Positions 1,311 to 34,900 of a DNA stretch of 34,900 nucleotides are shown here, piece after piece. The notes beneath the pieces are model-generated. The model worked only from the letters and a program-made list of their open reading frames with translations, had not been told where the DNA came from and made no database searches. The first letter of the stretch is position 1, and every line of letters begins with the position of its first letter. Source of the DNA: Lachnospiraceae bacterium (GTDB taxonomy: Bacteria > Bacillota_A > Clostridia > Lachnospirales > Lachnospiraceae). The DNA lies in contig JAFXWR010000272.1 of the NCBI GenBank assembly GCA_017542725.1, positions 1-34,900 of the forward strand. The letters are read 5' to 3'. The translations under genes and the position numbers were made by a program.

Positions 1311-1362
1311 GCTCTGCAAGCATTCGCCCCTACATTGCTCTGCAAGCATTTACCCTTACTTT
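1311..1362. repeat. Imperfect 26-bp tandem repeat (two copies) upstream of mtaD
   Basis: The 14-base string GCTCTGCAAGCATT occurs at 1311-1324 and again at 1337-1350. Each copy is followed by a similar C-rich tail (CGCCCCTAC and TACCCTTAC), giving a 26-base period. It lies between the tRNA gene and mtaD. The GTAGGGGCG core on the minus strand recurs in partial form at bases 1-7 of the window. It resembles a small interspersed intergenic repeat, but two copies do not prove a family. Confidence 0.55.
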
Positions 1363-1375
1363 GCAATACAAAAAA

Positions 1376-1534: not shown

Positions 1535-2650
1535 CTAATAGATATTTTTTATCATAGTGTCCATTAGCGAGTATAGTATGTCATAAATTTGCGGAACTTC
1601 TTTACTAAAATTTCGTAGATTTATAAAGCATGCATTTGGATATTCATTTGCCACATCTTCAACTGCCATATCATATAGGGAACTTTCTATAGGCAAGCCT
1701 TTACTATTTTCATAATCTAGAGATGCATACAGAAATACATTTTTATGTTTTAAACATGCTTCATTTAGATATTCTCTAAGTGTGTCTTTAAATTCTTCTA
1801 CATCAGTCTGATATTCATAATCATTTAGGCCAGATGTTATGAATACACTTTGAGCTTCATAATTTATAGCTCTCAAGACTTGTTCCTTACATTGTGAAAG
1901 TAAAAGTGAAGGACTCGAAAAATTTAAGATTACATATTCCTTTTTATTCTCATAGTCAAAGAATTCTTGTGCCGCTATGTCTCCTGTCACTGCAATTTGT
2001 TTTTTGTTCACTTCATTGATTGTGGAGCCTATAGATTTAGACATGGATCTAAAGATGGAGTAAACATAAAATTGTAATTTTGCATCCAATGTCTCGTAAA
2101 AAAACTTATCATAGTGTAAACCATCGCCAAAACCATGTTTTGTGTTATAAAAATATGACATATCAATATACATTACATTTTCATATTCATCCGCTAACTT
2201 TCTATATATCCTATCATATTCGGATGGTGAATAACTACCATTACCTATTTTTTTATTTGGGTAATCCATATAACTATGGAAAAATAAAAATTTATTTTTC
2301 GCACTTATCTCTTCTGCATATTTTCTAAGTTCTTGTTCAAACACAGATAATTCTGTATTCAACGCTTGGTCATTTACACCTGTGGCAAACAATATATAGT
2401 TATTGTTTGAGTTTATCGCTTCTTCAAATACTTTTTGATTTAATGGATTGTATATGGTTCCAACAGGAAAAATAAAATACTCATAAATTTCACTGTTTAT
2501 ACTTTTGTTGAAATATCCTGCATATGAATCTCCAACTACTGCAACTCCTGGAACCTTCAATACACCTGGTTCTTCGGCAAAAACTCTGCAAATAAAAGTT
2601 AGAGAAATGAATATAACCAACCAAAATATTTTTTTATAACAATCTCTCAT
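1535..2650 (-). CDS. Secreted protein with tandem SGNH-hydrolase-like domains, second one degenerate
   Basis: The product has 371 residues. Residues 1-25 form a classical signal peptide (MRDCYKK, a hydrophobic core, then VFA before EEPG). Cys21 is not in a proper lipobox, so a lipoprotein is unlikely. The first half (about 33-200) has the SGNH blocks: GDS (nucleophile S42), GVND (N93) and DGLH (D176, H179). The second half (about 217-371) repeats the layout with TGDIAA, which has no serine, and SGLND, but no DxxH, so it looks catalytically dead. SGNH enzymes are often carbohydrate O-acetyl esterases or lipases. The position right after a giant surface protein suggests a wall or surface glycan substrate, which is inference. 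The start lacks a recognisable Shine-Dalgarno sequence. The stop is TAG. Confidence 0.72.
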   Translation of the reverse strand: MRDCYKKIFWLVIFISLTFICRVFAEEPGVLKVPGVAVVGDSYAGYFNKSINSEIYEYFIFPVGTIYNPLNQKVFEEAINSNNNYILFATGVNDQALNTELSVFEQELRKYAEEISAKNKFLFFHSYMDYPNKKIGNGSYSPSEYDRIYRKLADEYENVMYIDMSYFYNTKHGFGDGLHYDKFFYETLDAKLQFYVYSIFRSMSKSIGSTINEVNKKQIAVTGDIAAQEFFDYENKKEYVILNFSSPSLLLSQCKEQVLRAINYEAQSVFITSGLNDYEYQTDVEEFKDTLREYLNEACLKHKNVFLYASLDYENSKGLPIESSLYDMAVEDVANEYPNACFINLRNFSKEVPQIYDILYSLMDTMIKNIY

Positions 2651-2707: not shown

Positions 2708-3790
2708 TTAGCCAACTCTAGTCGCAACTCCACCATTATTAGGGTCGCAGAAATATGTAGCACCTGCGACAGTTATGACGCCAGCAAATACAGAACCTAT
2801 CATATCACCTGACTCTACAAGATAATAGAGGTTTCCATTTATCTCAGTTAGTCCTGTTCTCATTGCTCCATCATCGCCAAAGTAATAGTAGAATCCATCT
2901 ATTTGTACAACTCCTGTAACTTTTTCATATGTCACATTTCCTGACGCATCTGTCACAGGAACAATAAAGTTAATAATTCCATTACCGGCATTTACAAATC
3001 CTTCTCTAAGTTCTGTATTTGCAAAGTTAACCATAGAAGCTTCATTAGCAATTGTTTCATCAAGTATTGGTACAGTCTCACCTACTGCACTTACATTCAT
3101 TGAATCCATATCGTACACATATGAAAGTCCATCAAATGCTGACAAGTCACCTACAATTTTACCTTCTGTATCTGTCATATATACAACTCCACCAACTAGT
3201 ATTGTAATACCAGCCATAAGTTTTCCTGCTTCAGCACCAGACTCTTGTAAATAATAAATATTTCCATTATGTCTTACTAAGCCAGTGAGCATTTCTCCAT
3301 TTGCATCAACTGCATACCAGCAACTAGTGCCTGAAACAAAACTTTCAAAGAATGTATTTCTTGCAGGTTGACCATTAACCATATATTTCCACTTATTTAC
3401 TATAGGGTCATAATTCCAAACTCCGCTTTCATTTGAATTTGAACTACTTACACCTGAAGGAACAATAAATTCAATTTGTAACCCTGTATCATCTCCTATA
3501 AGTTGTCCATTTTGATTAAAGTCTCTTACAGCACCATCTATATTTGCAAGACCAGTTACCATATTGCCGTAATTGTCTAAATAATAAGTTCCTGTTCCGT
3601 CATTTATCCAACCTGTCTTAGCTGTACCATCGTTGTTGAAATAGTGCCATGAATTCTTGTTATCATTTGCGTTTATAGTATATTGCCATCCATGTAATGT
3701 GTTGCCTTCTGGGTCTCTTGCTACATACTTACCTTTGGTTGAGTCATATGTCCAGTTAGCTATAGCGGTTATTTGCTGAGTTGTTGGTAA
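2708..3790 (-). other. C-terminal cell-wall-binding repeat domain of the giant protein
   Basis: About 360 residues of aromatic and glycine-rich repeats of the choline-binding/glucan-binding type, for example GWINDGTGTYYLDNYGNM, TGLVRHNGNIYYLQESG and GFYYYFGDDGAMRTGL. Such repeats bind teichoic-acid choline or other wall polysaccharide non-covalently. A second, less regular layer (LQIEFIVPSG, INFIVPVTDASG) separates repeat groups. The ligand cannot be told from sequence. Confidence 0.75.
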
Positions 3791-6700
3791 TGTGCCACCA
3801 GCTCCGCCACCGCCGCCGCCACCACCGCCAGTACCGCCACCGCTGCCTTGCTTCTCCCATTCAGCGTAAAGTGTCAAATCTTCATACAATTCTACTTCTT
3901 GTTTATTTAAGTAGGTTTTCTTGTCTGAACCTTTCCAATATTTAAATGAATAATTATTCTTTTCAAATTTGTTTGCTTTAAGTCTTACTTTTGTACCAGC
4001 TCTTACAATAGTTGGATCCATGCTGCCTTTACCACCATTTCTCATGTAAGTAATCGTGATGTTGTATGTGTCTATATAATTAGCATAAACTCTATTATTG
4101 CTTGAATCAGTATAAAGAGTGTCCTTGGTTATCTCATTTTTACCTGCAGCATCTGTTGTCCACTTTCTAAATAATCTTGTTGTAGTAGCTGGTATAGGTT
4201 CTACAAACGAACCATCTGCATTCTTAGGTTCACTTGATGTTCCTATAGAATAGTATGGTGCATCTAAGTAAGCTATGAACACATTTGTTGTCTTTCCAGT
4301 TGGAAGAGAACCTTCACCGAGTTCCATCGTAATCATAACTTCATTGTTATTCCAAAGTGGGAACAACTGTAAATCTGAAGTACTTCTAAATACTGAATCT
4401 ACTGTATAGTAATTTGTACCATTGTATGTCTTTCTTGCATAAGGTTCAGTTATCTTTGATGTCACAAACTTACCTGTGAATGTATAATAATTTCTTGTCT
4501 TAGGTGCAAATGCAGGTGTATCAGAGAACTTCTGATCATAAAGTATAGAATATCTTCCCTTATATGGATCTGGTACTGTTCCCTTCTCTTCATTTTGTGC
4601 AAGAGAAATATAGTATTTATTTCTTCCCCACATAGCATAGAGACGAACCTCCATTCTGCCTTCTGGGTCAATTGCAACTTCTTGTTTATCGCCATAGTAC
4701 TTACTCTTATCGTGCTCAATTGCTTCTGCCTCAGCTGCTGTAAGAGGAGTTTTAGACCAACCGATAAATCTATATCCTGTAAGTGAGTAACCATTTGGAG
4801 AAAGTGGCATAGTAACATGACCAGATCTACTTTGAGTTGCTGTAGTACCTTTTATTTCATTTGTATAAGGACCAGGTGATACTGGTGTATTCTTATCAAA
4901 TACTACTTCAAATGGTCCTGTCTCCCAATTAGCATAGAGAGTTACTACATTGTCATCCTCTGAACATCTCAAGTTCTTAACTTTTGCCTTGTTGTTATAA
5001 GTGAGTTTTATTCTTGGAGCAGTCTCAGGGTCTTCCTTACTATAGTCAATAGCATTTCTATCTATCCAATTTGAGAATGTCGCAACAGGAATCTTAAATC
5101 CAACATCTGGAAGTGTTATTTCCTCATCAAATTTTACACCCGTTATGTCTGCCATAGTTCCAGTTGATGATGTAGTTGCAGGGTCAAATTTAATCGTATA
5201 AGTTATAGGGTCCCAATTTGCATAGATACTATCGCCGTGAATAGTGTGATTATAAACTGTATCATTTGTCACAACTACAGCTCCTGCCTCTGTGGCACTC
5301 TTCTTGGTACTAAATTGAGTTGTCTTATATCCAAGTCTTGATGGTGTTGTCAAGTAAAGTATTCTATATCCATCTGGTATAAGTATAGAGTAAGTTGTAG
5401 GATTTGTCACTCCAGGTTGAACTATTCTATGTGTATCTCCAGTCATACCTTTAAACTTACCACCATTTGCATAAATAGTTACTTCATAAGTCTTATATCC
5501 GATATAAATATTATTTGTTCCATTTACTATCTGGTCATATACAATCCATGGCTCTCCAGGAGTCTCTCTATCCCTATATGGATCTTCTGCGTATATAACA
5601 TCTTTATAAGTAAGTGTTGGTCCAAATCCGGATGCAGAATTTAGGTCATCTAATACCTTTGTTCCTCTCTCTGGCACATAATATGAGAGCTTCATATCTC
5701 TTGTTGCAGTTCCAATCTTAAATGTCTCTGTTGAAGCATTGGTTACATAGATATTTCTCATATTGCTTCCAGTAGCAAATGTGACATTACCATTGAATAA
5801 GAAGTTCACCTTGCTATCAGCTGTTATGCCTGCTGGAGTAGATAACTTATATGAATAAGTGCTGTTATTTGCAGTGTTCTTAAATACACCACCGCCTAAG
5901 TTAAATGTTGCTCCATTATTTCCTGAAAGAACATAGTTGCCAAGCCCATTTACGAATACTATGTCATTTGTTGTATGCTCATCTATGGTTGTAGCATGAG
6001 GACCTGTGAGTGTTACTGTAGTGAACGTACCACCATTGTTAAATACTGCATTGTAGTTACCACTAAATACTATATCTTTATCAAGAGTTACTTTAGCCTT
6101 GTCTATATACATTACACTGCCAGCTGATGTAGAAGAACCATTGTTTTCAAATCTTGAGTTTTTAATTGTGATGGTTCCTGTACCACCATTAAAGTACATT
6201 GCACTTCCTTCACCAGTTACATTTGTAATTGATATTGAAGAAATAGTTACTGATGTATTATTGTTTGTAAATGCATATAGAGAACCTTTTTCTGATCTAT
6301 TGTTGTTGAATGTCAATAAGCTATTTCCACGTGTGAAGCCTTTAATATTATTAAAGTAAATAGTACCAACTGTTGCAATATTATTAGTAAATGTAGCATC
6401 TGCATTGATTGTAAATGCAGTATTGTCAGCATAGATTGCACTACCATTTGCTGCTTTGTTATTTGCAAATACATATGAGCCGCGACTTCTGTCTGCACGA
6501 ATTTCACCGCCAGTCATATAAATTACTCCACCATCAGTTGCTTCATTATCTGACATATTGACATTTGCATCGGCTTTTACAGCACCAGCAGCCATTCCAA
6601 TTACAGAGCCTTTTATACCCTTATTGTTTCTAATTACTGAACTATTGCTTGCAAATGTGAGAGTTGCTCCATTTACATAGAATATGCTACCTTCACCAGT

Positions 6701-9700
6701 AGAAGTATTATTTTCTACATTTACCTTACCAAGTTTAGTTTCATTGGTTCCTTCAAGAGCCATCATATAACCTGAGTTATTATTATTATCGATAGCTGTG
6801 TTACTTACAATAACATCTCTTGTTGGTGAATTTATAGTCACGAACTTCTTGCTATTAGTATTTCTATTAAACTCTACATTATCAAGAACCAACTTAGCAT
6901 TATTTATTGTTATAAATCCATCTGTTACGTCGTTCTTAACATTTGTAATACTTGTAGAAGAAATTACTACCTTGCCACCTACTGCATTTATAAACTTCTG
7001 ATTGTTAGAAGCATTTGTAGTGAGTCCATCTACATTTACATTATAGAAGTAAAGTTCACCAGTGCCTGAAACATTGAACATAGGTGATACTGAAGCTGAT
7101 TGATTTGCACTATGAGTGAGGGCTGCATTATTTCCACCCATTCCGCAGTCTGTAATATAAATCTTCTTATTGGTAATATTGAATAACTGCACGCCTTTAT
7201 CAACTGAAAGCTTGTAGCCATTCAAGCATATAGCTGAACCATCTGGCAAGAAGTCGAGAGCCTTCTTTACTTCTACATCAGTTGCAAGTGCAATATACTT
7301 AAGTGATGCAATAGCTTCCATCTCTGCAACACTATTAACTTCTGCAAATGATACAAGAGAATCGTGTATGCTTCCATCAACGTGTGGTACTGTATCTACT
7401 ACAAGTTTGCCACAGAGTGTGTGATCATGACTTCCAAGAGTGATTATAGTATGACCGCCAACTTTTACATGACATCTCTCTTTATACATATTCCACATTA
7501 CTTTTTGTGTTGGATCAACTACTGATGGAGCAATCCAATTTTGAGCAGCTACTGGCATACCTTCAATAGTTACTCTATCAAGATATGACTCTACATTACG
7601 TGCTACATATTGAGTTGCAATTATATTGGTATCTGTTACATTTTTCTTAAACTCAATTACTTCGTAGTTATCACCAAGTTTTACAGATACATCAGCATAC
7701 TTGCCTGACTTATAAAGTCTTGTATTTGTTCCTTCATATTCTTTATCAAGTTTAATTATATTTTCTGGAGTAAATACTGGAACTGAGTCAAATCCTGTGA
7801 TTCTATATTCATTCCAAAGTTTCAATACATCAATTTCTTTATTCTCTACTGACACAGATATATCTGACCTTGTAGAAAGCTTATGAGCTGCATCAGCATA
7901 CATACTTCCACCTGAAGTCATAAAGATATTTCTTGCATTTCCAGTAAATGCCAAGTTATCGTTTATCTTAATTCTATCGCCTACTGAAACTGTTCCTCTC
8001 TTCACATAGAGTGCACCAGTTGATCCATTGGTATTGTTTGTTATATTAGTCTCATCATAGATATTAAGAGTTGCATTAGCATCATCTATAACAAGTGTGG
8101 AATTAGTTGATCTATTATCTTTTATTTCTGACTTACTTATAGTAGTGTTCTTACCATAAACTGCTATGATACTTCCAACTGCATTTGCATTCTTAACCTT
8201 TATGTCGTCAAGAGTTACATTGTCAGCAAGTATCTTAATTGCAGCTCCATCTTTGTCGCCATAAGCGCCATCAATAACGAGCTTACTTATAACAGGTCTA
8301 TATGAACTTGAATCGGTGTTATCAACTACAAGTACAGGACCGTCATTTCCAAGTAACCTAAATGTATTTGCTATATTGAATGTAGAGTTATCTAAGTAAA
8401 TACCTGCACCATTTCTTCCCACATTGTTTGTCATATTAAATGTGACAAGTGTTGGGTCAGTGGTTATATTAGCTCCTTTTGCATAGATCATACCATAAGT
8501 TGCTATATTTTCTCTTATGTACATCTTATCACTTAATGTAAGTGTTGCATTATTAGTTACATTGAATGCTGCACCCTTATTAGCACTATTTCCGTTTATG
8601 TACATATTCTTATTTGTTACAAGATTAGCATTTCTTCCAGTAAGTTCAATTGCACTTCCTTCATTATTTTCGAATTTTGATTCGCCGTTTATAGTTGTAG
8701 TTACATTGTTGACCTTAAGTGCAACTCCTATTTCTCCGAGCATACCTTTTAACTTATTGCCTATAAAGCTGATTGTGCCAAGTGTAACTGCGTTTCTCTC
8801 TACACGTACAATAGATAATGGTGCTTCATTGTTGATGAATGATATGCTTGCAAACTTAGTATTACCATTTGCATTAATAGTGAATACTGAACTCATTGCA
8901 TCTTCATCACCACTATTATAAACTTTGTTGTCTCTAAATACTGTATTATAGAATGTAACATCTGCAGCATTATTTATCTTCATCCAAGATGTTGTATTAT
9001 CTGCATTATCATAAATATTATTCTTAAATGTCACGCCATCAAATACAACTTTAGCATCTTTTCTAATATCCATTATCTTAGTGTTATTATCATCAGCATC
9101 TACAGTAAATCCTTCAAATTGAACACCATATAATCTAAGTTCACCATATCTTACTAAGAAATGGTAATCTGAGCTACCTTCATCGGCTCCTACCTTAGAA
9201 ACTATAGCACCCTTAATCTTGTCTGTACCACCACAATCTGTAATAGTTAAGTTCGTAAGTTTGCCACTTGCAAGTTCAACTCCATATCCCTTTAAGAACT
9301 CTAACTTATATCCATTTAAGCAAATTGCATCGCCAGTGCTTAAGTATTTATCTAAACTATCAGTTATCTCGCAATTAGAAGCAAGTACGAAGTAATGTTG
9401 TCTACTTGCTGCTGGGAGATTAGAGTTGTCAATAAAGTCTTGCATAGTAACTACTTCTGTCCACTCTACATCAGCATGTGTTACATTGTCAAAGTGAGCA
9501 CATGATGCAGTTGATGGTAATCCACATATTCTATGCTTATGAACTTTAGATATGAATGAATTTGGTCTTGTAAGTTTTACATTGTAATTTCCTCTTGCAA
9601 ATGACCACTCAACCTGTTTTGTCTCGTCAGTTGGTGATGGAGCGAGCCAGATTTGCTTACTCATATCTTTTCCGCTTGTTGAAACTGGATCTACGTATGT

Positions 9701-12700
9701 AAGCACATTTCTTGCTACATATTGAGTTGCTATCACTACATCGTTTACAACAAATGTAAGTGGTATGAAACCATCGCCTACTGCTAACTCAACATTACTA
9801 TATGATCCTTTCTTATATACTCTATGTCCAAGTGACTTAGCCGCATTGTCAATTAAGAATATATTACTTGGGTCATTCATAGTATTAGTATTCTTAAACT
9901 CATCGAAATTATACTCATTCCAATACTTGAATATAGTCATATTGTTGTTAAGAGCCGCTACGCTTATCCTTGACTTTGTAGCTATCTTCTTTCCTGCTAC
10001 ATTCTTGATAAGTCCGTTTGGACGTACAAGTATTGAAGCTACATCAGTTGAACTATTATTATTTATCTGAACATTTCCCTCTACATAGAGAGTACCTTTT
10101 AAGTCAACTGCATATCCTGTTGGTAAGACATTGTTGGTAATGCTTGTAGTTCCAAGAAGCACAAGTTCTGCGCCAGTATCTATATCAAGTATGCCATTTG
10201 TCTTTCCTGTCATACTTAAGTTACTTATAGTAGCTTTTGTATTTGTATGGAAGATGCTTGTTACAGTATTGTTATCTGTATCATATTGACTTGTTAATTC
10301 TATATGAGAGTTGTCAAGTTCTAACAAATAATCTGCTACGTTGTCTTTTACAACTATCTTTTCTCCATCAAGAGCGCTCTTGCCAGATAATTTAATCAAT
10401 GCTCCATCTGTGACATTGTTATTTATAATTGATAATGTAGATATTGATAAGTTATCATCAAGTTTAAGTGATACTACATTGGCATTGTTAGTATGCACAT
10501 TTGCTATACTTACTGATGCCACATATGTTATAGACGAATCTATCTCTACTACTGGAAGTGTTGATGCATTGTCTATATTCTTTATAGTTACATTTTCAAG
10601 GTAAAGTCTTGCATCACTATCTGCCTTAAGTACTGACTGTCCAAGTGCAGCTGTGAAGTTCATATTTGATATAGTAATGTTGTACATATTTAGTCTTCCG
10701 CTTATATCAAATACACTATCCTTAGTTCGCGATACAGATGTTGTGTTGCTTACTATAGCTCCTGTGCCCTTGCAATCTGTAAATGTGATTTCTTTATCCT
10801 TGGCAAGTGTAAGCACTGTCAATCCTTTAGCAAGTTTCATTTGATATCCATTTAAGCAGATTACTGAACCTGTAGCTAAATTATCAAGTGGTCTATCAAC
10901 AACAATATCGTTGTTGAGTACGAAATACTTATTTACATGATTATTTAGCATCTCATCAAGATTTGAAACATCAGTAAATGATAATAACTCTTTATGCATT
11001 GTGCCATCCATATGGGCATCTGAATCGGTAGCAGTATGTCCACATGCTGTATGAGTATGTGCTGAGAGCAATACATATGCATCTTCTGTCAACTTAACTG
11101 AATACTTAGCCTTGTCCATTTCCCAATTTACAGTTACTTTCTCATCATCAGGTGAAGGAGCTATCCATACCTGCTCACTCATTGGTCTATCATGGAGTTT
11201 TACATAGTCTACATAAGCATCTATATTCTTTGCTACATATTGAGTTGCAAGTATCACAGTGCTTGTCTTCTTCTCTTTAAATCTAAGAACTGCATATTCT
11301 TTACCAAGTCTAAGTTCTACTTTATCATATATGCCTGCTTTATAAATTCTCTTATCAGCATTAGTTGTAGCCGCATTATCAATGTGGAAGATTTCAGTTG
11401 GTGCGTACATCACTCTTGAGCCTGATACATCGCTAAAGCTTGCAATCATTGAATCATTCCAATATCTAAAGAATGGACTCTCTATATTCTTTACTTGTAC
11501 ATAGATTTCAGAAGATGATGAAATCTTAGATATCTCATCGCCTCTTATTGCCTCTCTGTCCACAACTAAGTTAGCGTCGCTAAGTGCACCGCTTATATTT
11601 GCCTTGTTATCCTTAACTACTATGTCACCGCCTAATATAAGGTTTGCAGTAGCAAGAGTTACTACACCATCTGCAGCTACTTTATTGTCCTTTATAGTTA
11701 CATCGTTAAGTGTTACACTAATTGTTGCTGTATTTCCTTTAGCTGAAATAAGTGTTACATTTGTTTCGTTGTCTGACATAACAACATTTTCAAGTAATGC
11801 ATTAGTCTCGGCATAGATGATGCTTGAATTTTTGTTTGTAGTGTTCTTATTTTCTTTCTCATCAGCAAATCTTATATTTCCAATTTGTGACTCAGCGCCA
11901 AATACATATATTTCTCTACCCTGTCCACTTACGCCAAGTGCAGAATTCTTAGTATAGTTGCCATTTAATACATATGGGTCAAGTTTACTTCCTAATAAAG
12001 TTGCACCATTAAGCGCAATAGCTCCACCATACTGTGCCTCATTATCTTTTATAATAAAGTGGTTGTTGAGACCAAGTCCTGACTCTTCTATGCTTATCGC
12101 ACCACCTATTCTTGCTCCAGTATTTCTTGCTATACTGATTGTTGCTAGAGCCTCTAAAGTTGCATTTGGACCAATATAAACTGGTGTATATGATGCATCT
12201 CCATATACCTTATTATCTTCTATCTTAGTCTCTGCCGATACGTTTACAGTTGAATTTCTATTTAAGTTAATGAGCGCACTAGTTACTGAGTTAGATGATA
12301 TATTTGTCTCTCCATTTAAGTCTACAGTAGCACCTTCACCTACACGGATTGCATCTGCAATTATATTGTTTGTTAATTCTAGTTTGCCAAATGCCACATT
12401 GACATTTTCATCAACTTCTACTGCTGTACCACCTCTATTGTTGTTAAATGTAAGTTCTCCAAATGTGATACCTAAGTTGCCGACAGCTCTTCTCTTTAAG
12501 TTCATCAAGCTATCATCTTTTCCAACAATATTATCTTTAAATCTCACTTTATCGTAAAGTATCTCGCCATTTTGTTGAGAGTTAGAAATTAAGTTTACGT
12601 CTACTCCGTTGATACTATTTCCCATGAATAGCACGTCGTGTAGATTTGCTTTTGCATCTCTTCCTACATTTACTATACTCATACCAAAGTCTGCATTAGT

Positions 12701-24499: not shown

Positions 24500-25780
24500 T
24501 TTCTTAGTTTCTTTTTCAACATTCTATACAAAATGAACTATGCTACCTTTCTTTCTAAATCCGGTAAATGTAGTATCTGAAATACTTGCTTTACCTTTAC
24601 TATAGATTGCAGCACCTTCATAATTTTCTGCCTTACTATTACTAAATGATGCAAATCTAATATTTATAATACTATCTTCGCTACCATAAATGCTTGCACC
24701 CTTACTAGATATATTTTCGTCAAATGTTATAGTGCTATCTTCGCCATCAACATTGAGTGTTCCTCTATTTACATAGATTGCACCTGCTTCTCTATAAGTT
24801 GATTTATTTCCATAGAATGTCGCACCATCTTTAATTGTCACTTTTGCTTCTTCATCATCAATGTTGAATATCACGCCTTCATTTGCATAAGGATTTGATG
24901 TGTTGTTTATATTTGTATTGTCATGATATTCTCCACCAAGCACTTTCATATCAGCAACTTTTTCTACTTTGATAAGCGCTGATGCCTTAGCTTGGTTGTC
25001 ATATGCTTCTATGTTATTAAATGTAGCTACTTTTGCTTTAGCAAGTGTGATAATTGGAGTTGCATTATAGTTTGTAGCAATCTTTGTGTTTTCAATATCA
25101 AATGAGCTATCATCGCCATCCATAACAAATATTGAAGATGTTGCTCTTGTATTACTTATAGTTGAATAGTTGATGATTACATTTGATTCATCTGTTCCTT
25201 TTACAAGTGTTCTATTTATGTTGATAAAGTTAATGTGGTTGAGGACTAATGTCGAATCATTAACTTCTATAGCATATTTATCGGTAGCATCTTGACCACC
25301 AAGTAACTCGAAATGTCCTGTTCCCTTACAATCAGTTATTACAACTTTAACTTTTTCTGACATATCAAGGAAACTTATATTCTTATCAATAGTAAGTGTC
25401 TTACCATTTAAGCATATATCTATTTCTTCATATTGTGACCAAGTTCTTGCCACATCTTCTGTGATATGTAAATTCTTTCTCAAGTATAGTTGTCTAAATC
25501 CTCTTCTAAACATAGCCACATTACGAGCATTGAAGTATGTAGCTATTCTCACATCATAATCAGTCGCAATCATATGTGAGTGAGGTATTTCTTCTTCTCC
25601 ATAGATACGACCTGGATTGATAGAAGTGATAATCACTGTTATATTCTTTGTATTATCTCCATAGTAAACAAGTGCTTTATCATCATCAAGAGCTGGTCCA
25701 AACCATACAGCCTCTTTTGAAGTTGGGTTTATGATACTTTCAACTTTAGTCTCAGCATTTCTTGCTACATATTGAGTCGC
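23492..25780 (-). repeat. Giant protein unit B0 (763 codons, contains the TAG)
   Basis: Linker ATQYVARNAETKVE. The header is reduced: it keeps HSH but lacks the CG that follows in the other nine units. It has DICLNGKTL and ITDCKGTG (B type). Its long-type cassette (EAGAIYV, KGASIYG, EGAAIYS, about 24540-24800) is followed by the TAG. It ends in ASGSVISI and FEYWND. Confidence 0.65.
24524..24526 (-). other. In-frame amber (TAG) codon interrupting the giant gene
   Basis: The minus strand reads ATA GTT CAT TTT GTA TAG AAT GTT GAA AAA (IVHFV-stop-NVEK) and continues as beta-helix sequence (KKLSNIDFVANN) in the same frame. The distance from the stop to the next repeat motifs is a whole number of codons. 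A single base change from GAG, AAG, CAG, TAT, TAC, TTG, TCG or TGG would explain it. TAG is also the natural stop of the neighbouring SGNH-like gene, so general TAG recoding is unlikely. Confidence 0.9.
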
Positions 25781-28700
25781 AATAATCACATCTTCTTTTC
25801 CTTCTTCATCATCTAAGTAGACATATTCTACTGGCACACAGTCATCGCCAATATATACATTGCAGTTTGAAGCTGTGCCTTTCTTATAAATGTGAGTGCT
25901 TCTTGGAAGTTCTATATCTTTTAAGAATGTCTTATTTGCACTTATGTAGCCATTGTCATAACCTTCTACCTTGCCTTCATACCATCCGCTATATACTAGA
26001 CAATTATTTTGACTATGATAAATATTTACTACTGACTCTGATGCCTTAAACTTAGTTCCTGGCAACTGTCTAAATAGTGCAGTACTATATAAACTACTAT
26101 AATAGAAACCATATGTGTCTAATGTCTCATCACTAACATGTTTATTATTCTTTACTGCCAACTCTATATTGCCTAATGCAAACACACCCTTGCCTGTTAT
26201 GTTTGCAATCTTATATCTTGAATCGCCTGTAAATACATTGTTCCTTACATAGAAGTTACCAAATAAACTAAACTCTCTATTTCCATTTAGAGATATTGCA
26301 TCCATAGCCATTCTATTATTAGCTATAGTCAAGTTACTATTTGTTGCTATGAAGAAGTCTGCTCCATCAACAACATTAATTATGCTCTGTCCTACTAAAT
26401 CATTGTTCTTAATTGCAAGTCCTGCTATCTCAAGCTTAGAACCTGCTTCTGCATCTATAATATTTCCAGCTATATAACGCATATCTGATATAGTTGCATT
26501 TCTAAATACAAGTTTTGTGCTTGTGTGAACAAGTGACCTAATATGTCTTCCACCTTTGATAGTCACATCACTTAAGAGTACCTTTTCAACTGGTCTATCT
26601 GAAGTTTCATGAGAGATAAACTCAGTAGCATCAGAAAGTGAAGCATAAATTATAGATGCTCCTTTGCCGCCTATGAAACTTAAAGCGTTATCTTTATATA
26701 TAGGATGTAATGTTACTTTATTGCTTGTGTCAAATAAGTTATGATTCTCATCATCTACATAGATATTATGTCCATCCATATAGATAAGTCTCTCTCCATA
26801 GAGTTTACCCATGACATCTATGTCAAACTTTGTCTCTCTAATTCTTATATCTTTTCCTAAGATATATTGAGTATTGTATAGTCTTGGCATACTGCCTGTA
26901 GACTTATATTGATAATAGAGTTGTGGAATCGTTGCTACATGGACATAATTATCTCTTGCAACTATACCATTGTGATCTACATACTCATATACACCTGATG
27001 TAACCGTCTTAGTTGCAACATCTACTTTATTGTCTACAATCCTAATATACTTTTCTACTACTGATTCTTTCTTAGAAATTACTGACCTTGATGCTTTTCC
27101 TCTTCCCTCTACTTTTACCTTATCATCAGTGAATACTGAATAGAGAACTCTATCAAAATTACTATTTTGCATAGGGTCTATATACCAACCAAGGAAATTA
27201 GCATATGTAATTCCTTTTACTTTATTTGTTGTGAAATCCCAATCAGGTATAAATGAAGTGTGGTCTGTAATAGAAATATTTCTACCAAGGAATCCAAGGT
27301 ATGACATCTTATTGTCAAACTCTCCGATAGTTGCCAAAGTATAAGGCACGTCAACAAGAGAACCTCTACTTGTTCTCTTAATATATGTATCTTTTATATC
27401 TATAGATTTTCCTTTATATTTTACTGCATCCTTATCTACAAAGTAAGATACGTTGACATAGTCGTAACCCACATACCACTTGTCATCTTCTCTATAGAAT
27501 TTCTGTTGTCCACCTACCTGCTTATATGAAGAGTTTTCATACTTATAGTATCCCTTACTATAGAATGCCTGTGGTGCTGGTGCATCGCCTACCCACCATG
27601 GTTCTACTCTTCCTTCGTAATTTAAGTATACCAACTCATCCAGTTTTGTAGTTGTCTCTTTAAATATATTATCTGCCACTAATTCATCAAATCTATTTCT
27701 AAACTCAACCCAAGAAAGAGTTCTAGATGTAGTTTCGTCCTCATAATATCTTACATTCATAGATGAATAGTTAACTCCATCAGCCCTTATAGCATCATTG
27801 TAAGCATAATACTTTATGACACCTACTCCAAGTATATCTTTAGTTAAATTATATAATACAGAAGGATCACCTGTTGCTGGAAGTGTATCTACTGACTGCT
27901 CAGTTAGAGTATCAAAATTATAATGGAATACATTGTTGAACTCTGTTCCTCTATTTACATACTCGACATTCTTATCATTCCATCCGTAGAATACTTCTGT
28001 CTCAGGTGCTGTTGCTGTGAACCAAACTTCTGAGTTCTTAGAAAGTGGCTCTCCATCAACACCGGCTGTAATTCTTATCTTATTATTGATTGCGAGTAAG
28101 TTTTCTACCACTCCGTTTCTTGTGTTATTCTTATATTCTACAACTCCACCAAGTATGATATTTAATGGATATTTTTTATTTGCATAAGTATAACTCTCTG
28201 TAAGTGCGTTGTCACTTATCACAGAGTCCACAAATCTTATGACACTTCGATTCTCATCTGTGAACTCATAGATGTATGCGCCAGATGTACGAGTTATATA
28301 AGTTCTCACAAATGACAATGTTGCATTGTCAACATAAATTATATTGCTGTTGCCATCAAATGTACTATCTACAATATTTGGTGCAACTATATCTCTAAAG
28401 CTAATTAAGTTAGCCTTGTTTTGAATAGTATTATCTTTAGCATATAATCCGATTACATTTACTTCATCATTATACAAACTATGCTTTGAATTTCTATCAA
28501 AGTAGAATGTCTTTGGCTCTTCATCATTTACATCACCTGCTGTGAACCAACCAAATGTTGTTGAATCATCTATTCTCGCATACTTTCTTGTAAGCATCTC
28601 GTTAAAGTTTGGATTAGATTCATAGTCATAAAGTTTATGACCACTTCCGCCGACCAATGATACACAGTTTTCAAACATCTTATCACTTGTATCATCTTTA

Positions 28701-31700
28701 TATGCGAAATTACTACCTACATATATAGTCTTTAAGTTTTCACAGCCGTCAAATAATAAGTTGAGGTTTGTAACATCTTTTACTGCAAATGAAGTCAAGT
28801 TGACACTTTCAAGACCGCTACAGTTAGCAAATGCTTTTGACATATTAGTTACTTTACTTGTATCAAAACTTGTCAAATCTAAGTCTTTCATACTTAGACA
28901 ATACGAGAACATAGATGAGATGTTTTCGACATTTGTAGTATTAAATCTTGAAATGTCTATAAAGTCTAAGCTTATACAATCTTCAAACATACTTTCAAAT
29001 GAAGTAACTCTGCTTGTATCAAATCTTGTCAAATCAACTCTCTCCAGAGCAAGCATATTTTTGAACATACCATTTGATGCTGCATTTAATCTTATATATG
29101 AAGAAGCTGAATAGAAATAAATTGTCTTATATGACAAATCCCACCAAAGAAGTATCTGCTCATCAGTTATGCTACTCAAATCTGTAACTACAGCACCTGC
29201 TCCAGATTGAGACACATCATATACTGTTCCGCTCGTTGGCGCTGTCTTGCTCCACTTTACTTTCTCTACAGTCACGTTACCTGATACAGTCTTTCCTGAA
29301 ACCATAACATTTCCATCGCCGTTTGCTGCTTTTCTCATCGTAGCATTAAATATCTCACCTGTAGTCATATTAGCAAATGTATTTTCAACAGTTTGATTGA
29401 AGCTAATAAATCCTGTGTTGCTGTCATTATTCATCGTTACATTTTCTATATAGATGTTTTCTGATTTAAATTTATCACTAGTTCCATACGAGTTGATGCT
29501 TACGAACGAATCTGTTGTATTTATATCAAAGAAGCTTACGCTTGCCATAACGAGTCTTCCTGCATGGTTATTCATATTGATTACTTTATGATTAATTGTA
29601 ACTCCTGTTTTTGAAGTTATATAACCGTGACTCCTTGTATGGTCATCCTTACAGTTAGTAATCATGAATCTTGCATTAGAATTTTCAAATGCAACCCAAT
29701 CTTCAACATCATTAAAGATGAGATTATGACCATTTAAGCAAATTGAATATTCTCCCTCCAATCCATAGACTAGAGATCTTGTTATTTCAACATCTTTCTT
29801 TAGATAAATATTTGCAGTATTAATATTTAAGTGATTTTCAGATCTTGCTTCAAGCCAATATTCTTTATCAGTTGTTAAGCCATATTCTGAACCTGCTGTA
29901 TGAATATGAGTGTCAGTCTCGTATCCGTAAATATATGCTCCGATTACAACTCTTCTCGCATCTACTTGTCTCTCGTATATGTTTTCATCTCCTGCTCTAT
30001 AATCAAGTGATGGCATAGCATTGCTAAATCTATCATCGTATACTTCATAAGAGCCATACCCCTGAGTACCAGGTATTATATAATTTCTATTTGGACCTGA
30101 CCAGAATACGCCTTCACTCAAATCTTTTACAAATCTTGTTCCATCATTCCAAGTATAATAATCTTTGTTTAATGGTCTTTCTACTTGAGTTAACACATTC
30201 TTTTCAATCAATTGATATGAAACTGTAGCAATTCTTGTATTGTATTTTGTCTCTTCTGCATCTCCAGGTAGTCTTTCAAGAAGTAATGCTGTAATCTCTA
30301 CATAGTTAATTCCAAACATTACTTTCTCAGTAAGTCCTTTCTGTGTCTTATAAATGTCTCTTGCATATATTGCATCTACATCGTAAACATGGTCTTTGTC
30401 TTCATGGAACGTGCTTACAATCTGCGCTGCAGCGACCTCATTATATCCCTCTACAGTTATTTTTGACCAAGTAGCCATTACACAAGACTCAAAATATTTA
30501 CCTGACAAATCATTAGCATATATGTATATGTCAGAATCAGATGCCTTGAATTTATAACCACCATCAACAAATAACATAGGGTTGTTGCGACATAGATTAT
30601 CGTGCTCATCATCTGGTATACTTCTTCCAGCGCTATTCTTAGAAAAATCATAAGTGTAATTAAACTGTCTTACCCTCATGAAGTTTCCAGCAGGATCATA
30701 AATGTTGTTTTTAACATTAAGTCCGCCATCTCTTATAAGAATCTTGTTGTATTTATTAGTATTCTTATAATTAAGAGCCGCACTATATGTCGAAACTGTC
30801 ATAGTCGTACTAAATGTATTGCTTTCAATATTGAGAAGTCCTGACAATACAAGACCAGACTCAAGCGAAAGCATAGAACGAGGGTTATCCAAATCATCGC
30901 TTATTGTTATCACATTCTTATTGATTGTAGTTTTGCCATCTTCATCAAGTATTGTTAGTCTTGGAACTACATTAATCAAATCTCCATTTGAAACAGCACA
31001 ATTAGTTACAGTGTTATTTCCAGCAAAGTATGCATATTCACCAGATCCAAGTGCATTGCTTCTCTTAAATGTGAACTTATCCAATGAAATCATTGTATTG
31101 ACTGAGTTAACATCGCTTATTTCAAAATCTTTCAATATTACCGTTCTTCTATTTACTCCTTCTGTAAACTCTGTGTCAATTAATGAATTCATATTATTTC
31201 CAACTGATGTTTTTCCAATTTTCACATTCTTAAAATATGCAACTGGGTTTTGAGTTGTTGGTAATTTAAATGCAGTTAAGTATGTAGAAGAATCAGACCT
31301 CAAATTTACATCATTCATCTCTAAACCATCAATATAAAGATTCTTCACAGTAAACATTTCATGATTTGAAGTAAAGCTATTTCCAAATGTTACATTGTTG
31401 ATATAAAGGTTATTCTCAGCGATGCTGGTGCTTGCATGAGAATCTTTAAACATTACATCTTGGTCAACACCATCTCCACCAAAGCCTTCTATACTCAAAT
31501 TGCTTAAGTAAAGTGCATTTGAACCATATACATCTACAAGACCTGGCTTATAGTCAGTTCCATTTTGTATAATAGTTCCTTTACTTGAAGCTAGATTTGT
31601 TGCCCCAACTATATTTAAATATCTATGACCTACTATTTGATTTTTATTAGTAAGCACACCTTTAATTCTATTATCCTTAGATTCATTCCATCCGTTATTT

Positions 31701-34700
31701 TTCACAGTATCTATCTTTAATAATTCATTACCAGCATACTTAGACCCTTTCTTAGTCCCTTGGCCACCAACTAATTTATTGCATCCTGCAAAAACATCTT
31801 CAAATTGAGTGACAGCACTAAACTCCTCTTCCACATAGATTCTTTCAAGATTAGCACACCCTTTAAATGCATCTCTTGTATTTGTCACTTTACTTACATC
31901 TATACTTGACAAATCTATATTCTTAAGCGCTTCACAATTTTGGAACATACTTCTTATATTTGTAATATCATTTGTCTTTGCCATCTTAGTTGTATCCACA
32001 TATTGTAAAGCTTTGAAGTTATAAAACATGTATGCAAGAGTAGTCTCTGGCCACTTTACTTTATCAGCAGCTGTCCATAGATATACTTCATTTTGTACAA
32101 CGGCTCCTTCTTCAAAAAGTAAGTATGCCAAGATTGCAGTATCTGGTACATTTGAGAAGTCTGTGTATTTTGTAAAGCCTCCACTTTCAGATATATCATA
32201 AGCTTCTCTTGCTCCCTTTCCACCATAGAAGTTCTGTGGTTTTTCATCAGCCCAAATTATTCTTTCTATAGTGTTGTCTTCAGCACTATATGTTTTAGGT
32301 TCGTCTAATAAACTCTTAAGATAAGCATTAATATTTGTACTCATTGATAAGGCTGCGTATGTCTCATTTTTCTTTTTCTTGTCAACTACACTATCTACAT
32401 TGACCTTTACTTGGTCAAATATAGTGTAAATTGGTTTACCAATTCTTGTCTCATGTTTTCTTCCATTGCTCAAGTCAAAGATTGCACTTGCTGTACTCAA
32501 ATAATTGATAGTATGACCATTCAAGAATACATTCATACCTTCAGAGAATATACCATCAAATCCTTCTGGTATAGTGATATCATCAGTAAGCCAATATCTT
32601 GGATAGCAATATCCTATATCAGGTGTGTCGTCTACTGCACCAAGTGCACTTAATTTCTCGGGTAATACTACAAGTAATTTTTCAAATCTATCAACCTTTA
32701 TAGCCCAAGTAGATAAATAGTCATCAGACAAATCTGTGATAGCAGCATGGTTTCCTATCATTCCTTCATGTTTACAATCTTCAGTTATAGGAGTTCCGCA
32801 AAGTCTATATTGATAAGGTTCACTATTCTTATCAGCATATGCATAGACTCCATAAAGTGTAACTTTTCCACCTACTGCTTCTCTTGCATTGATTCTATAA
32901 GTGAAATTATTTGTAGCTGTGAGTAGTTTGTAATCATTGATATACATGCCTCCATCAAGAACATCTATACCAGCATTAGCATCTTTACCTATGAATCCTA
33001 CAAACTTAAGTCCATCTGCATCATATGAACCATCTCCTATACCTTCAACTAAACCAATTAGGCTTCTTTCTGAACGCCTGTAGATAAATTGACTTTTTGG
33101 ATTTTCGAATTTTCCTCCTGCATCTAAGTCAAACTCAACTTCAACACATTCCTTACCTAATACATATGTGTCGTCTCTTCTATAAATTTGATAGCCTTCA
33201 AATGTATCTCCACTACCACTTGCATCAGCAGAAAAATAAGATGAGAGTGCTTTCTTGAAGCCTTTACTTGACCATTCATTCATAACGACAGTCTCTGCTT
33301 CATCTACATAGATACCTACACTTCTTGTGGCCATATCAACATCTACATTATCTATCTCAAGTATCATATTCTTAGGATTATATCTTATATTTCTTTCCTT
33401 ATCGCTTATAGCAGAACTTGCATCATAGTTTTCATCTATGTTTGCTTCTGCTAAGAACTTGACTGTAGTTGTTTTATACCTATTATTAATTAATGACCAA
33501 CAATATTTATCTTTATTCTCTTCAGTATAAACCACCTCTCTTACTATTGGGTCACGAACTGGATTTGGCTTTCTCTCTGCCTTACCTATATAAGTACAAT
33601 ATCCTATACCTTCTTCATCTTCCTCAAATGCTCTAAAATAATCAGAACTTATATTCGTCTCAGAAAAGACTGTTCCATTTCCTCCTATCAGTCCTTTTGC
33701 TTGAATAAACATTTCTGAGTCACTAATGTCGCTTTCAAACTCTCTATCAACATATATTCTTTCTCCAGTGTACTGGTCAAACATACGGCTTGCAACAATG
33801 CTTCTATCTGTTCTATTTTTTAAATCCCAATTAGATAAATCAAGGTTTTTAATTGAAGCATTACTAAACATACTACTCATATTAGTCACTTTACTCACAT
33901 CAAAGTGAGATAAATCTAATTTTTCCATACTATTTCCAAAATTACGAAATGTCATCCACATTGAAGTTACATTGCTAGTATCAAAAGTAGATATATCTAA
34001 TTTTTTCATACTATAACAACCATAAAAAAGGGAATCGAGTGACTGAATACCACTTATATCAAAGTTTCTTAAATCCAACTCTTCAAGTCTTCTACATTCT
34101 TGGAACATAGATGATATGTTGGCTGTATTATGTTTCGCACCCGATGCGTCTATATACGACAGTCTAAGACTTGTTAAATTTATTGACTTTATATTCATAC
34201 AGTACGCAAACATAGTCTGTGTAGTTGTTGGACATACTTTCCACTCAATATTTGATAAGTCAACTTCTAGCAAATTATTACAATCATAAAAAACAGAAGA
34301 TAGATTAGTCCATTGAGCTGGGAAACTCGTAAAATTATTAAAATCTATATACTTTATTGCATTAAATCCGTAAAACATTCTATATAAATTACCATTTTGA
34401 ACTCCGACCTTGTATTTACAATACATATTTAGGACATTACTTGAATCTACCCATCCTAAGATTGCCTTATCATCATATGTGTTTGAAGCATTGATAACTA
34501 TATTTCCATAGGCACTTGTACCCGCTGTTATCGTAGGATTAAACTGGAATCCATTTGTGTTTGTTTTTGGTAAAGTATTTGTCCACCTTAATTCAACTAT
34601 ATCATCCTTTTTTCCGCTAAGATTAGTTGCTGACGAACCATCATCAAATAATGCATTAAATGTTATGCCTGTTGGAAGATATACATCAGCTGCCTCTGGC

Positions 34701-34900
34701 ACTACCTTTTTTGGCTCTTCAGTATCTGGACTATTATAATATGCTACAAAATCTTTTGACTCACCCTCTGCTGTGAAGTTATTTTTTATATTGGTCTTAT
34801 CATCAAAAGTTAGGTAATTTGCTCTTGCATTTGTATATCCAAGAACATATCTTCCTTTATTTTCTTCCATCTTAGTATTAATTTTTATTTTTGCATCACA
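24524..34900 (-). CDS. Giant surface protein, N-terminal segment (5' end beyond the window), ending at in-frame TAG
   Basis: The frame is open to the right edge: codons before the ATG at 34868-34870 (reading CDAKIKINTK, then MEENKG) contain no stop. That ATG has no ribosome site and no signal peptide, so it is probably internal. The visible part is 3458 codons plus TAG. It contains three DUF285/BspA leucine-rich modules (33590-34598, 31681-32265, 28540-29270) interleaved with beta-helix segments. Three divergent copies of the header strand (FLNGH near 32530, ICLNGH near 29735, YMDGH near 26790) precede the first canonical linker ATQYVARN (25763-25780), which starts unit B0. DUF285 repeats are typical of surface proteins of mycoplasmas and gut or oral Firmicutes and are associated with adhesion. 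If the TAG is real, this half would lack the wall-binding tail and be released or degraded. Confidence 0.82.
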   Translation of the reverse strand, partial: CDAKIKINTKMEENKGRYVLGYTNARANYLTFDDKTNIKNNFTAEGESKDFVAYYNSPDTEEPKKVVPEAADVYLPTGITFNALFDDGSSATNLSGKKDDIVELRWTNTLPKTNTNGFQFNPTITAGTSAYGNIVINASNTYDDKAILGWVDSSNVLNMYCKYKVGVQNGNLYRMFYGFNAIKYIDFNNFTSFPAQWTNLSSVFYDCNNLLEVDLSNIEWKVCPTTTQTMFAYCMNIKSINLTSLRLSYIDASGAKHNTANISSMFQECRRLEELDLRNFDISGIQSLDSLFYGCYSMKKLDISTFDTSNVTSMWMTFRNFGNSMEKLDLSHFDVSKVTNMSSMFSNASIKNLDLSNWDLKNRTDRSIVASRMFDQYTGERIYVDREFESDISDSEMFIQAKGLIGGNGTVFSETNISSDYFRAFEEDEEGIGYCTYIGKAERKPNPVRDPIVREVVYTEENKDKYCWSLINNRYKTTTVKFLAEANIDENYDASSAISDKERNIRYNPKNMILEIDNVDVDMATRSVGIYVDEAETVVMNEWSSKGFKKALSSYFSADASGSGDTFEGYQIYRRDDTYVLGKECVEVEFDLDAGGKFENPKSQFIYRRSERSLIGLVEGIGDGSYDADGLKFVGFIGKDANAGIDVLDGGMYINDYKLLTATNNFTYRINAREAVGGKVTLYGVYAYADKNSEPYQYRLCGTPITEDCKHEGMIGNHAAITDLSDDYLSTWAIKVDRFEKLLVVLPEKLSALGAVDDTPDIGYCYPRYWLTDDITIPEGFDGIFSEGMNVFLNGHTINYLSTASAIFDLSNGRKHETRIGKPIYTIFDQVKVNVDSVVDKKKKNETYAALSMSTNINAYLKSLLDEPKTYSAEDNTIERIIWADEKPQNFYGGKGAREAYDISESGGFTKYTDFSNVPDTAILAYLLFEEGAVVQNEVYLWTAADKVKWPETTLAYMFYNFKALQYVDTTKMAKTNDITNIRSMFQNCEALKNIDLSSIDVSKVTNTRDAFKGCANLERIYVEEEFSAVTQFEDVFAGCNKLVGGQGTKKGSKYAGNELLKIDTVKNNGWNESKDNRIKGVLTNKNQIVGHRYLNIVGATNLASSKGTIIQNGTDYKPGLVDVYGSNALYLSNLSIEGFGGDGVDQDVMFKDSHASTSIAENNLYINNVTFGNSFTSNHEMFTVKNLYIDGLEMNDVNLRSDSSTYLTAFKLPTTQNPVAYFKNVKIGKTSVGNNMNSLIDTEFTEGVNRRTVILKDFEISDVNSVNTMISLDKFTFKRSNALGSGEYAYFAGNNTVTNCAVSNGDLINVVPRLTILDEDGKTTINKNVITISDDLDNPRSMLSLESGLVLSGLLNIESNTFSTTMTVSTYSAALNYKNTNKYNKILIRDGGLNVKNNIYDPAGNFMRVRQFNYTYDFSKNSAGRSIPDDEHDNLCRNNPMLFVDGGYKFKASDSDIYIYANDLSGKYFESCVMATWSKITVEGYNEVAAAQIVSTFHEDKDHVYDVDAIYARDIYKTQKGLTEKVMFGINYVEITALLLERLPGDAEETKYNTRIATVSYQLIEKNVLTQVERPLNKDYYTWNDGTRFVKDLSEGVFWSGPNRNYIIPGTQGYGSYEVYDDRFSNAMPSLDYRAGDENIYERQVDARRVVIGAYIYGYETDTHIHTAGSEYGLTTDKEYWLEARSENHLNINTANIYLKKDVEITRSLVYGLEGEYSICLNGHNLIFNDVEDWVAFENSNARFMITNCKDDHTRSHGYITSKTGVTINHKVINMNNHAGRLVMASVSFFDINTTDSFVSINSYGTSDKFKSENIYIENVTMNNDSNTGFISFNQTVENTFANMTTGEIFNATMRKAANGDGNVMVSGKTVSGNVTVEKVKWSKTAPTSGTVYDVSQSGAGAVVTDLSSITDEQILLWWDLSYKTIYFYSASSYIRLNAASNGMFKNMLALERVDLTRFDTSRVTSFESMFEDCISLDFIDISRFNTTNVENISSMFSYCLSMKDLDLTSFDTSKVTNMSKAFANCSGLESVNLTSFAVKDVTNLNLLFDGCENLKTIYVGSNFAYKDDTSDKMFENCVSLVGGSGHKLYDYESNPNFNEMLTRKYARIDDSTTFGWFTAGDVNDEEPKTFYFDRNSKHSLYNDEVNVIGLYAKDNTIQNKANLISFRDIVAPNIVDSTFDGNSNIIYVDNATLSFVRTYITRTSGAYIYEFTDENRSVIRFVDSVISDNALTESYTYANKKYPLNIILGGVVEYKNNTRNGVVENLLAINNKIRITAGVDGEPLSKNSEVWFTATAPETEVFYGWNDKNVEYVNRGTEFNNVFHYNFDTLTEQSVDTLPATGDPSVLYNLTKDILGVGVIKYYAYNDAIRADGVNYSSMNVRYYEDETTSRTLSWVEFRNRFDELVADNIFKETTTKLDELVYLNYEGRVEPWWVGDAPAPQAFYSKGYYKYENSSYKQVGGQQKFYREDDKWYVGYDYVNVSYFVDKDAVKYKGKSIDIKDTYIKRTSRGSLVDVPYTLATIGEFDNKMSYLGFLGRNISITDHTSFIPDWDFTTNKVKGITYANFLGWYIDPMQNSNFDRVLYSVFTDDKVKVEGRGKASRSVISKKESVVEKYIRIVDNKVDVATKTVTSGVYEYVDHNGIVARDNYVHVATIPQLYYQYKSTGSMPRLYNTQYILGKDIRIRETKFDIDVMGKLYGERLIYMDGHNIYVDDENHNLFDTSNKVTLHPIYKDNALSFIGGKGASIIYASLSDATEFISHETSDRPVEKVLLSDVTIKGGRHIRSLVHTSTKLVFRNATISDMRYIAGNIIDAEAGSKLEIAGLAIKNNDLVGQSIINVVDGADFFIATNSNLTIANNRMAMDAISLNGNREFSLFGNFYVRNNVFTGDSRYKIANITGKGVFALGNIELAVKNNKHVSDETLDTYGFYYSSLYSTALFRQLPGTKFKASESVVNIYHSQNNCLVYSGWYEGKVEGYDNGYISANKTFLKDIELPRSTHIYKKGTASNCNVYIGDDCVPVEYVYLDDEEGKEDVIIATQYVARNAETKVESIINPTSKEAVWFGPALDDDKALVYYGDNTKNITVIITSINPGRIYGEEEIPHSHMIATDYDVRIATYFNARNVAMFRRGFRQLYLRKNLHITEDVARTWSQYEEIDICLNGKTLTIDKNISFLDMSEKVKVVITDCKGTGHFELLGGQDATDKYAIEVNDSTLVLNHINFININRTLVKGTDESNVIINYSTISNTRATSSIFVMDGDDSSFDIENTKIATNYNATPIITLAKAKVATFNNIEAYDNQAKASALIKVEKVADMKVLGGEYHDNTNINNTSNPYANEGVIFNIDDEEAKVTIKDGATFYGNKSTYREAGAIYVNRGTLNVDGEDSTITFDENISSKGASIYGSEDSIINIRFASFSNSKAENYEGAAIYSKGKASISDTTFTGFRKKGSIVHFV
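25781..27016 (-). repeat. Divergent beta-helix unit N3 in the N-terminal part
   Basis: About 412 codons. The header strand is degenerate (YMDGHNIYVDDE in place of ICLNGH), with no HxHxxCG. Asn-rich beta-helix strands follow, then a tail close to the canonical linker (THIYKKGTASNCNVYIGDD) leading into ATQYVARN. No cassette and no LRR module. Confidence 0.5.
27017..30229 (-). repeat. Divergent beta-helix unit N2 with embedded LRR module
   Basis: About 1071 codons. It begins at a linker variant (ATVSYQLIEKNVLTQV, matching ATQYVAKNVETYV), then THIHTAG (HxH kept, Cys lost), SICLNGHNL and ITNC. A DUF285 module (28540-29270) interrupts the helix, which then resumes. The C-terminal part has a poorly assigned stretch of about 250 residues rich in Tyr and Lys (27050-27900). 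Confidence 0.5.
28540..29270 (-). other. DUF285/BspA-type LRR module 3 of the giant protein
   Basis: Consecutive repeats of the form L..(V/I)DL(T/S).FDTS.VT....MF..C.SL (for example LERVDLTRFDTSRVTSFESM). A lead-in ILLWWDLSYKTIYFYS precedes them, and the exit LVGGSG then ARIDDSTTFGWFT is the usual closing motif of this family. Surface-exposed and probably a binding module. Confidence 0.85.
31681..32265 (-). other. DUF285/BspA-type LRR module 2 of the giant protein
   Basis: Shorter module with about three repeats (YMFYNFKALQYVDTTKMAK, MFQNCEALKNIDLSSIDVSK, AFKGCANLERIYVEEEF) and exit KLVGGQGT. It is preceded by AILAYLLFEEG, which matches the lead-in of the other two modules. It sits between the FLNGHTI header strand and the next helix strands of segment N1. 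Confidence 0.8.
33590..34598 (-). other. DUF285/BspA-type LRR module 1 of the giant protein
   Basis: The longest module. It has repeats such as VFYDCNNLLEVDLSN, MFQECRRLEELDLRNFDIS, LFYGCYSMKKLDISTFDTSN and MEKLDLSHFDVSKVTNMSSM, with lead-in AILGWVDSSNVLNMYC and exit GLIGGNGT. It is the most N-terminal recognisable domain in the window. Confidence 0.85.

Follow-up and report, generated by a model that had tools for sequence, protein, structure and literature searches.

The giant reading frame

The DNA examined was a 34,900-nt stretch (hereafter the window) of contig JAFXWR010000272.1 from the Lachnospiraceae bacterium assembly GCA_017542725.1. A giant reading frame occupies its minus strand from 34900 to 2708 (32,193 bases, 10,731 codons), and we consider it likely to belong to one gene for a secreted, choline-anchored giant adhesin fibre, some 12,100 residues long, in a species of a Lachnospiraceae genus known from ruminant stomachs. 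The frame is divided as follows.

24527..34900, minus strand: 5' part of the giant gene, 3,458 codons, 5' end not reached (from the open reading frame (ORF) listing and relatives, which have 1,337-1,403 residues more)
24524..24526, minus strand: in-frame TAG, codon 3459 (stop missing at the same place in 5/5 relatives)
2708..24523, minus strand: 3' part of the giant gene, through the terminal TAA at 2708-2710 (from the ORF listing)

The TAG is the sole internal stop, frameshifts are absent, and the 5' side is open to the window edge. Downstream of the TAG lie 7,271 codons, listed as an ORF of 7,263 residues from a TTG at 24499. The remaining five frames hold 472-1,587 stops each, so the giant frame is not due to chance. 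An earlier note on this DNA had counted the same codons and single stop, and had described the codons between the last ATG (34870) and the window edge as open; the counts were right, and the ten codons preceding that ATG are indeed open. It had also raised misassembly of repeats. The window holds no N and its longest exact direct repeat is just 25 bp, which makes a repeat mix-up during assembly unlikely; a near-identical unit of the module array described below may have been collapsed.

Relatives and length of the gene

Species genomes were searched with an alignment of the nine strong modules of the window, giving 33 pattern matches, of which 14 are relatives, at eight loci in five assemblies (G001-G005): three titled Lachnospiraceae (goat reticulum, sheep omasum, water deer rumen), RUG816 (titled Clostridiales; we take RUG to stand for rumen), and one uncultured Clostridia whose source is not given. 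Each of the five assemblies carries an ortholog of the giant gene. In G005 a single contig holds it as 12,864 open codons, and a single contig of G002 carries 11,793 codons, an in-frame TAA and 252 codons more. Two contigs with an exact 128-bp overlap hold 7,984 and 4,353 codons in G001; two contigs hold 7,622 and 4,333 codons in G003, where an overlap between them was not found; and 7,653 codons run to the contig end in G004.

In alignments the window's first residue falls on residue 1377 (G001), 1357 (G005), 1338 (G002), 1404 (G003) and 1364 (G004). In all five relatives the gene starts 1,337-1,403 codons past the window edge, at an ATG preceded by an AAGGGG or CAGGGG ribosome site. What follows the ATG, outside the window, resembles a signal peptide when read by eye. 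Since the start lies there in every relative, the full window allele should comprise about 12,100 codons. The earlier note had held that the protein is longer than the window and had proposed extending the contig rightward in search of a signal-peptide start; in the relatives the frame runs on and such a start is found. Its claim of a single chain is supported by the long frames of G005 and G002; the window allele itself is split by the TAG, and there we infer one chain from the relatives and from selection.

A near-identical 20-nt leader was seen just 5' of the ribosome site; of 15 genomes searched, five have it, each in a single copy (L010:3934-4013, L014:6005-6084, L017:2444-2523, L020:18440-18519, L024:1420-1499). 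It could form a 7-bp hairpin, without covariation and with one pair broken in G004.

Domain architecture

From N to C terminus the order is signal peptide, acidic linker, DUF285 repeats, a divergent module, nine strong modules, an InlB-like stalk and a choline-binding tail. The signal peptide, about 700 Glu/Thr/Ser-rich residues and a first Cys/His plus beta-helix part are known from the relatives alone (by eye). Features within the window are listed below (residues of the window frame).

33701..34453, minus strand: first DUF285/PARCEL (Liste_lipo_26) block (ends approximate, by eye)
31751..32053, minus strand: second DUF285-type block (ends approximate, by eye)
28730..29074, minus strand: third DUF285 block, residues 1943-2057, the best Pfam stretch
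25184..26056, minus strand: module m1, residues 2949-3239, with a divergent head (H-x-H kept, without C-G)
5561..23767, minus strand: array m2-m10, nine strong linker plus beta-helix modules (3' limit approximate)
3848..5494, minus strand: six InlB B-repeat/Flg_new-like stalk repeats (unit limits by eye; one stretch passes alone in Pfam)
3794..3847, minus strand: glycine-rich linker
2711..3748, minus strand: choline-binding repeat tail (PF19127; sequence matches to choline-binding proteins and glucan-binding repeats)

The DUF285 blocks matched PF03382 (E = 9.1e-47, three stretches) and TIGR02167 (E = 3.3e-43). Profile matches of m2-m10 begin at residues 3712, 4484, 5026, 5794, 6328, 7092, 7789, 8302 and 9004, and an ATQYVA motif occurs ten times at a spacing of 506-775 residues. 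The middle 5,000 residues gave no Pfam match at E ≤ 0.01. The stalk matched PF09479 (InlB/Flg_new) in one stretch (E = 1.1e-6, 29.1 bits against a cut-off of 27), and the tail matched PF19127 (Choline_bind_3) in two stretches (E = 8e-15) and choline-binding proteins of the PDB by sequence (E = 8.7e-8 and weaker). The parts named by the earlier note are thus present: DUF285, InlB/Flg_new repeats, Choline_bind_3 tail and nine modules headed by H-x-H-x2-C-G. It had called their combination unusual; the build proved common to several species of the genus and is not peculiar to the window gene. Within the reach of the present searches the module is new, and so are its arrangement in a row of about ten and the domain combination.

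The repeated module

9680..11536, minus strand: m8 plus the next head, residues 7789-8407 (AlphaFold2, mean predicted local distance difference test (pLDDT) score 87.5)
10880..11536, minus strand: linker/head of m8, H-x-H-x2-C-G-x8-H-x5-H (modelled alone, mean pLDDT 83.8)

The one module modelled, m8, was predicted as a right-handed parallel beta-helix (pectate-lyase-like fold) preceded by the linker, almost all of it beta, and the chain's eight other strong modules can be aligned to it. The H-x-H-x2-C-G...H...H set of the linker is invariant, being kept in 45 of 45 strong heads. The linker holds many of the modules' invariant positions; those of the helix are mostly CLxG and DC turns and single Asn residues. 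Because the Pfam and PDB searches made here returned no match to the linker and its invariant His/Cys set, we regard it as a candidate for a new domain.

Two observations concern m6 and m7. Their heads in G005 (L005:15524-16180 and 17813-18469) are almost identical over one stretch, which points to a duplication or gene conversion of recent date, and the contigs of G001 and G003 break in or beside this region.

Evolution of the array and of the distal end

For the module tree, 79 of 93 matches were used; partial matches and three weak ones from the protein P0003 (see below) were dropped, and one partial row was kept by the filter (G003a at 3084, 39% filled). Modules of the long gene grouped by position across species, each of m2-m10 forming a clade with support of at least 100/99; the m6 clade includes one extra copy, from G005. 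Because the modules cluster by position, the array was, by this tree, laid down before these species split, and its order has been kept as far as the broken assemblies show.

Synonymous divergence (dS) from G001 was 0.109 over residues 1-800 and 0.774 elsewhere (Fisher P = 1.8e-68). The 800-codon limit was picked after the profile was seen; a block shuffle, which covers all runs of such length, matched the lowest 16-block dS run in 0 of 10,000 trials. This pattern fits the view that species have recently exchanged the distal end, where the DUF285 repeats lie. Divergence at the locus is uneven altogether, since dS to G001 is 0.60 for the neighbouring amidohydrolase gene (241 codons compared) and 1.60 for the SGNH gene. 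The ratio of nonsynonymous to synonymous divergence (dN/dS) against G001 was 0.20 over residues 1-800, 0.16 from 801 to the stop and 0.19 after the stop (7,263 codons); judged by these ratios, purifying selection acts on both sides of the TAG.

Distribution, paralogs and genome share

The full module was found at 1e-20 in 8 of 40 relatives of G005. Linkers at E ≤ 1e-5 were found in 10 of the 12 genomes of its genus (strong in G001-G005, weaker in G007, G008 and G010, marginal in G009 and G012) and not in G006 or G011. When 299 genomes were drawn evenly across the family, G005 alone matched at 1e-8, so that draw held no further strong carrier. On these matches, the module has so far turned up in a single genus; the source of P0003 may lie outside it.

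In G001, G002, G003 and G005 (L010, L014-L017, L020) the gene immediately upstream is a second giant, g2, of about 6,200 codons and the same orientation; in G004 its place is taken by a 344-residue ORF with a similar end. In G005, frames of more than 5,000 codons matched by the module profile, some weakly, measure 12,889, 6,212, 14,230, 6,878 and 5,542 codons. These five amount to about 137 kb, or about 7% of 1.9 Mb. The 14,230-codon frame (C1:231993 onward; L027, L028) has its own signal-peptide-like start, with 15 H-x-H-x2-C-G motifs in its first 11,002 residues.

Wall anchoring

Choline_bind_3 matches number 28-60 in each of G001-G012, and 0, 2 and 4 in G013, G014 and G015; one of 14 control genomes matches. 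Choline kinase was found in all 12 genus genomes (G001-G012) and not in G013-G015 (controls: 5/14 match, 2 over the cut-off). LicD was found in 10 of the 15 genomes, G001-G009 and G013 (9/12 of the genus; controls 2/14). In pneumococcus, choline-binding proteins are held via a phosphocholine-bearing wall polymer. Given the choline-binding repeats and the choline genes of the genus, the tail probably, by analogy, holds the protein to such a polymer.

A choline-kinase-bearing frame of about 600 residues lies near a choline-binding-repeat frame of 317-327 residues in six genomes, at the following sites.

G005 C10:58142-59383
G003 C25:7712-9157
G001 C8:47226-48776
G002 C10:1173-4224
G004 C174:3743-5240
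G007 C41:5596-7053

Proposed function and alternatives

As an adhesin fibre, the giant protein would be exported by its signal peptide and held to the phosphocholine-bearing wall polymer by its C-terminal repeats. The InlB-like stalk and about ten linker-joined beta-helix rods would carry the chain outward, and its far N-terminal end would consist of the DUF285 repeats and the acidic region, which is probably disordered. The invariant His/Cys set of the linker would most likely bind a metal (zinc), stiffening the joint between rods; polysaccharide or glycoprotein is the most likely predicted ligand of the beta-helices; and the distal DUF285 part would be a variable, exchanged contact surface. 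Feed particles, mucin, ciliates and other bacteria are candidates for the surface met.

Several points weigh against this reading. Every relative is known from a draft or metagenome assembly; in G001 and G003 the array is interrupted by a contig break, which leaves their module number unsure, and G004 runs off its contig. The window allele has the TAG in frame, and one of the five relatives, G002, has its in-frame TAA in the tail. The 500-codon window over residues 1-500 gave a dN/dS of 0.405. LicD was not found in G010-G012 among the 15 genomes, and is present in G013, which is without choline-binding repeats. Foldseek alone, run with the module against the PDB, gave no match at E ≤ 0.001.

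TAG ends 16 of the 67 ORFs of at least 150 residues listed mechanically in the fetched loci. It is an ordinary stop, so its reassignment is disfavoured and the window copy is possibly broken. With one defect in 10,731 codons and similar selection on both sides, an old pseudogene is disfavoured as well, and the TAG would be an error, a very recent mutation or a site of read-through. That the TAG, and perhaps the exact module number too, are assembly or sequencing errors in a gene that is really intact has somewhat less than an even chance: all five relatives are without a stop there and the TAG sits in a poorly conserved stretch, but with a longest exact repeat of 25 bp the array should assemble easily. 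It is unlikely that the TAG is real and the gene broken in the window strain, with the N-terminal part secreted unanchored and the downstream part not exported. Such a break would agree with the stop itself, with the first listed start after it (TTG 24499) having no signal-peptide-like stretch, and with G002 likewise carrying one in-frame stop; the single defect, the lack of frameshifts and a dN/dS after the stop like that before it speak against a break, although a very recent mutation would look alike.

A structural surface layer or a self-aggregation fibre, in place of an adhesin to host or feed, would suit the kept module order and the fact that G001, G002, G003 and G005 each have at least two giant frames, but we hold it improbable, as the exchange seen in the distal DUF285 part points to a variable contact partner. 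Least probable is a wall-bound, polysaccharide-degrading comb whose rods are lyases or epimerases helped by the SGNH-like hydrolase: the structural neighbours of the module include AlgE4, PL6 lyases and polygalacturonases, and the hydrolase adjoins the gene in 4/4 relatives whose contig shows the 3' end, but adhesins and tailspikes score the same, and binding is preferred over an enzyme role because many of the invariant positions lie in the linker (a catalytic set was not sought by superposition).

The adhesin reading can be extended, tentatively and with considerable doubt, to a genus-specific fibre of about ten zinc-clamped beta-helix modules, in fixed order since before the species split and each probably with its own ligand. 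A single molecule would then read an ordered set of sugars on a surface. The gut lineage, small in genome, would devote several percent of its DNA to proteins of this kind perhaps because it lives attached to another cell.

Comparison with known systems

The closest in kind are Giant1-5 of Apilactobacillus kunkeei, described in the available part of the report (PMC12863079) as extracellular proteins of 3,000-8,000 residues that take up 6% of a 1.5 Mb genome. Consecutive giant genes, a small genome, intragenic recombination (short there), a beta-solenoid (SRRP-like, Giant1-4) and a C-terminal part thought to bind the wall are shared; there, the beta-solenoid is at the N end, alpha-helical repeats come after it in Giant1-3, and the C end is SH3b-like. 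In the window gene, about ten linker plus beta-helix modules make up most of a chain of about 12,000-12,900 residues, along with DUF285, stalk and choline tail. Membership of the Giant1-3 group, marked by a long alpha-helical region, was considered and rejected on the almost all-beta m8 model and the eight strong modules aligned with it.

P0003 (5,614 residues) has a signal-peptide-like start, an acidic region, a CLNG beta-helix with H-x-H heads, InlB-like repeats and a choline tail (by eye; PF19127); it is half as long, with two modules above 100 bits and 33% identity over the searched head region. The g2 paralog (about 6,200 residues) carries the same kind of module, with stalk and tail alike by eye and a choline-binding repeat in the G005 copy, but is half as long and its modules fall in their own clades. 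Streptococcus pneumoniae choline-binding proteins (PDB 2bib, 2v04) share the C-terminal repeat tail, and no similarity was seen upstream of it. With the PARCEL/DUF285 proteins the distal blocks share DUF285 and TIGR02167; the horizontal spread proposed for that repeat, in the portion of the source available (PMC2996958), fits the mosaic seen here. The repeat is a small share of the window chain, and the beta-helix array stands outside that family as so described.

Bacterial proteins of at least 5,000 residues are known, surface attachment being among the chief roles proposed (PMC11573180, available part), and ORFs of up to 39,678 residues, with adhesion proposed, occur in the reduced genomes of Omnitrophota (PMC10066038, available part). 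The window protein is unusually large, yet its size alone is not new, because those ORFs are larger. They differ, as that source describes them, in their transmembrane helices, few annotated domains, poor conservation and phylum. Giant ORFs are often poorly conserved, as there, whereas here six alleles from related species can be aligned, and they show a genuine frame, modules that stay in place and a distal end exchanged between species. In this lineage one may ask what benefit a gut bacterium with a small genome draws from placing such a share of its DNA, as in G005, in a few giant surface proteins.

Neighbouring genes

1535..2650, minus strand: SGNH/GDSL-like hydrolase with a signal-peptide-like start

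The second half of the hydrolase repeats the first (by eye). Its gene diverges much faster than the adjoining amidohydrolase, as if changing alongside the giant gene. A tandem repeat (26-bp unit, 2.1 copies) lies at window positions 1311-1364, at the start of the amidohydrolase gene.

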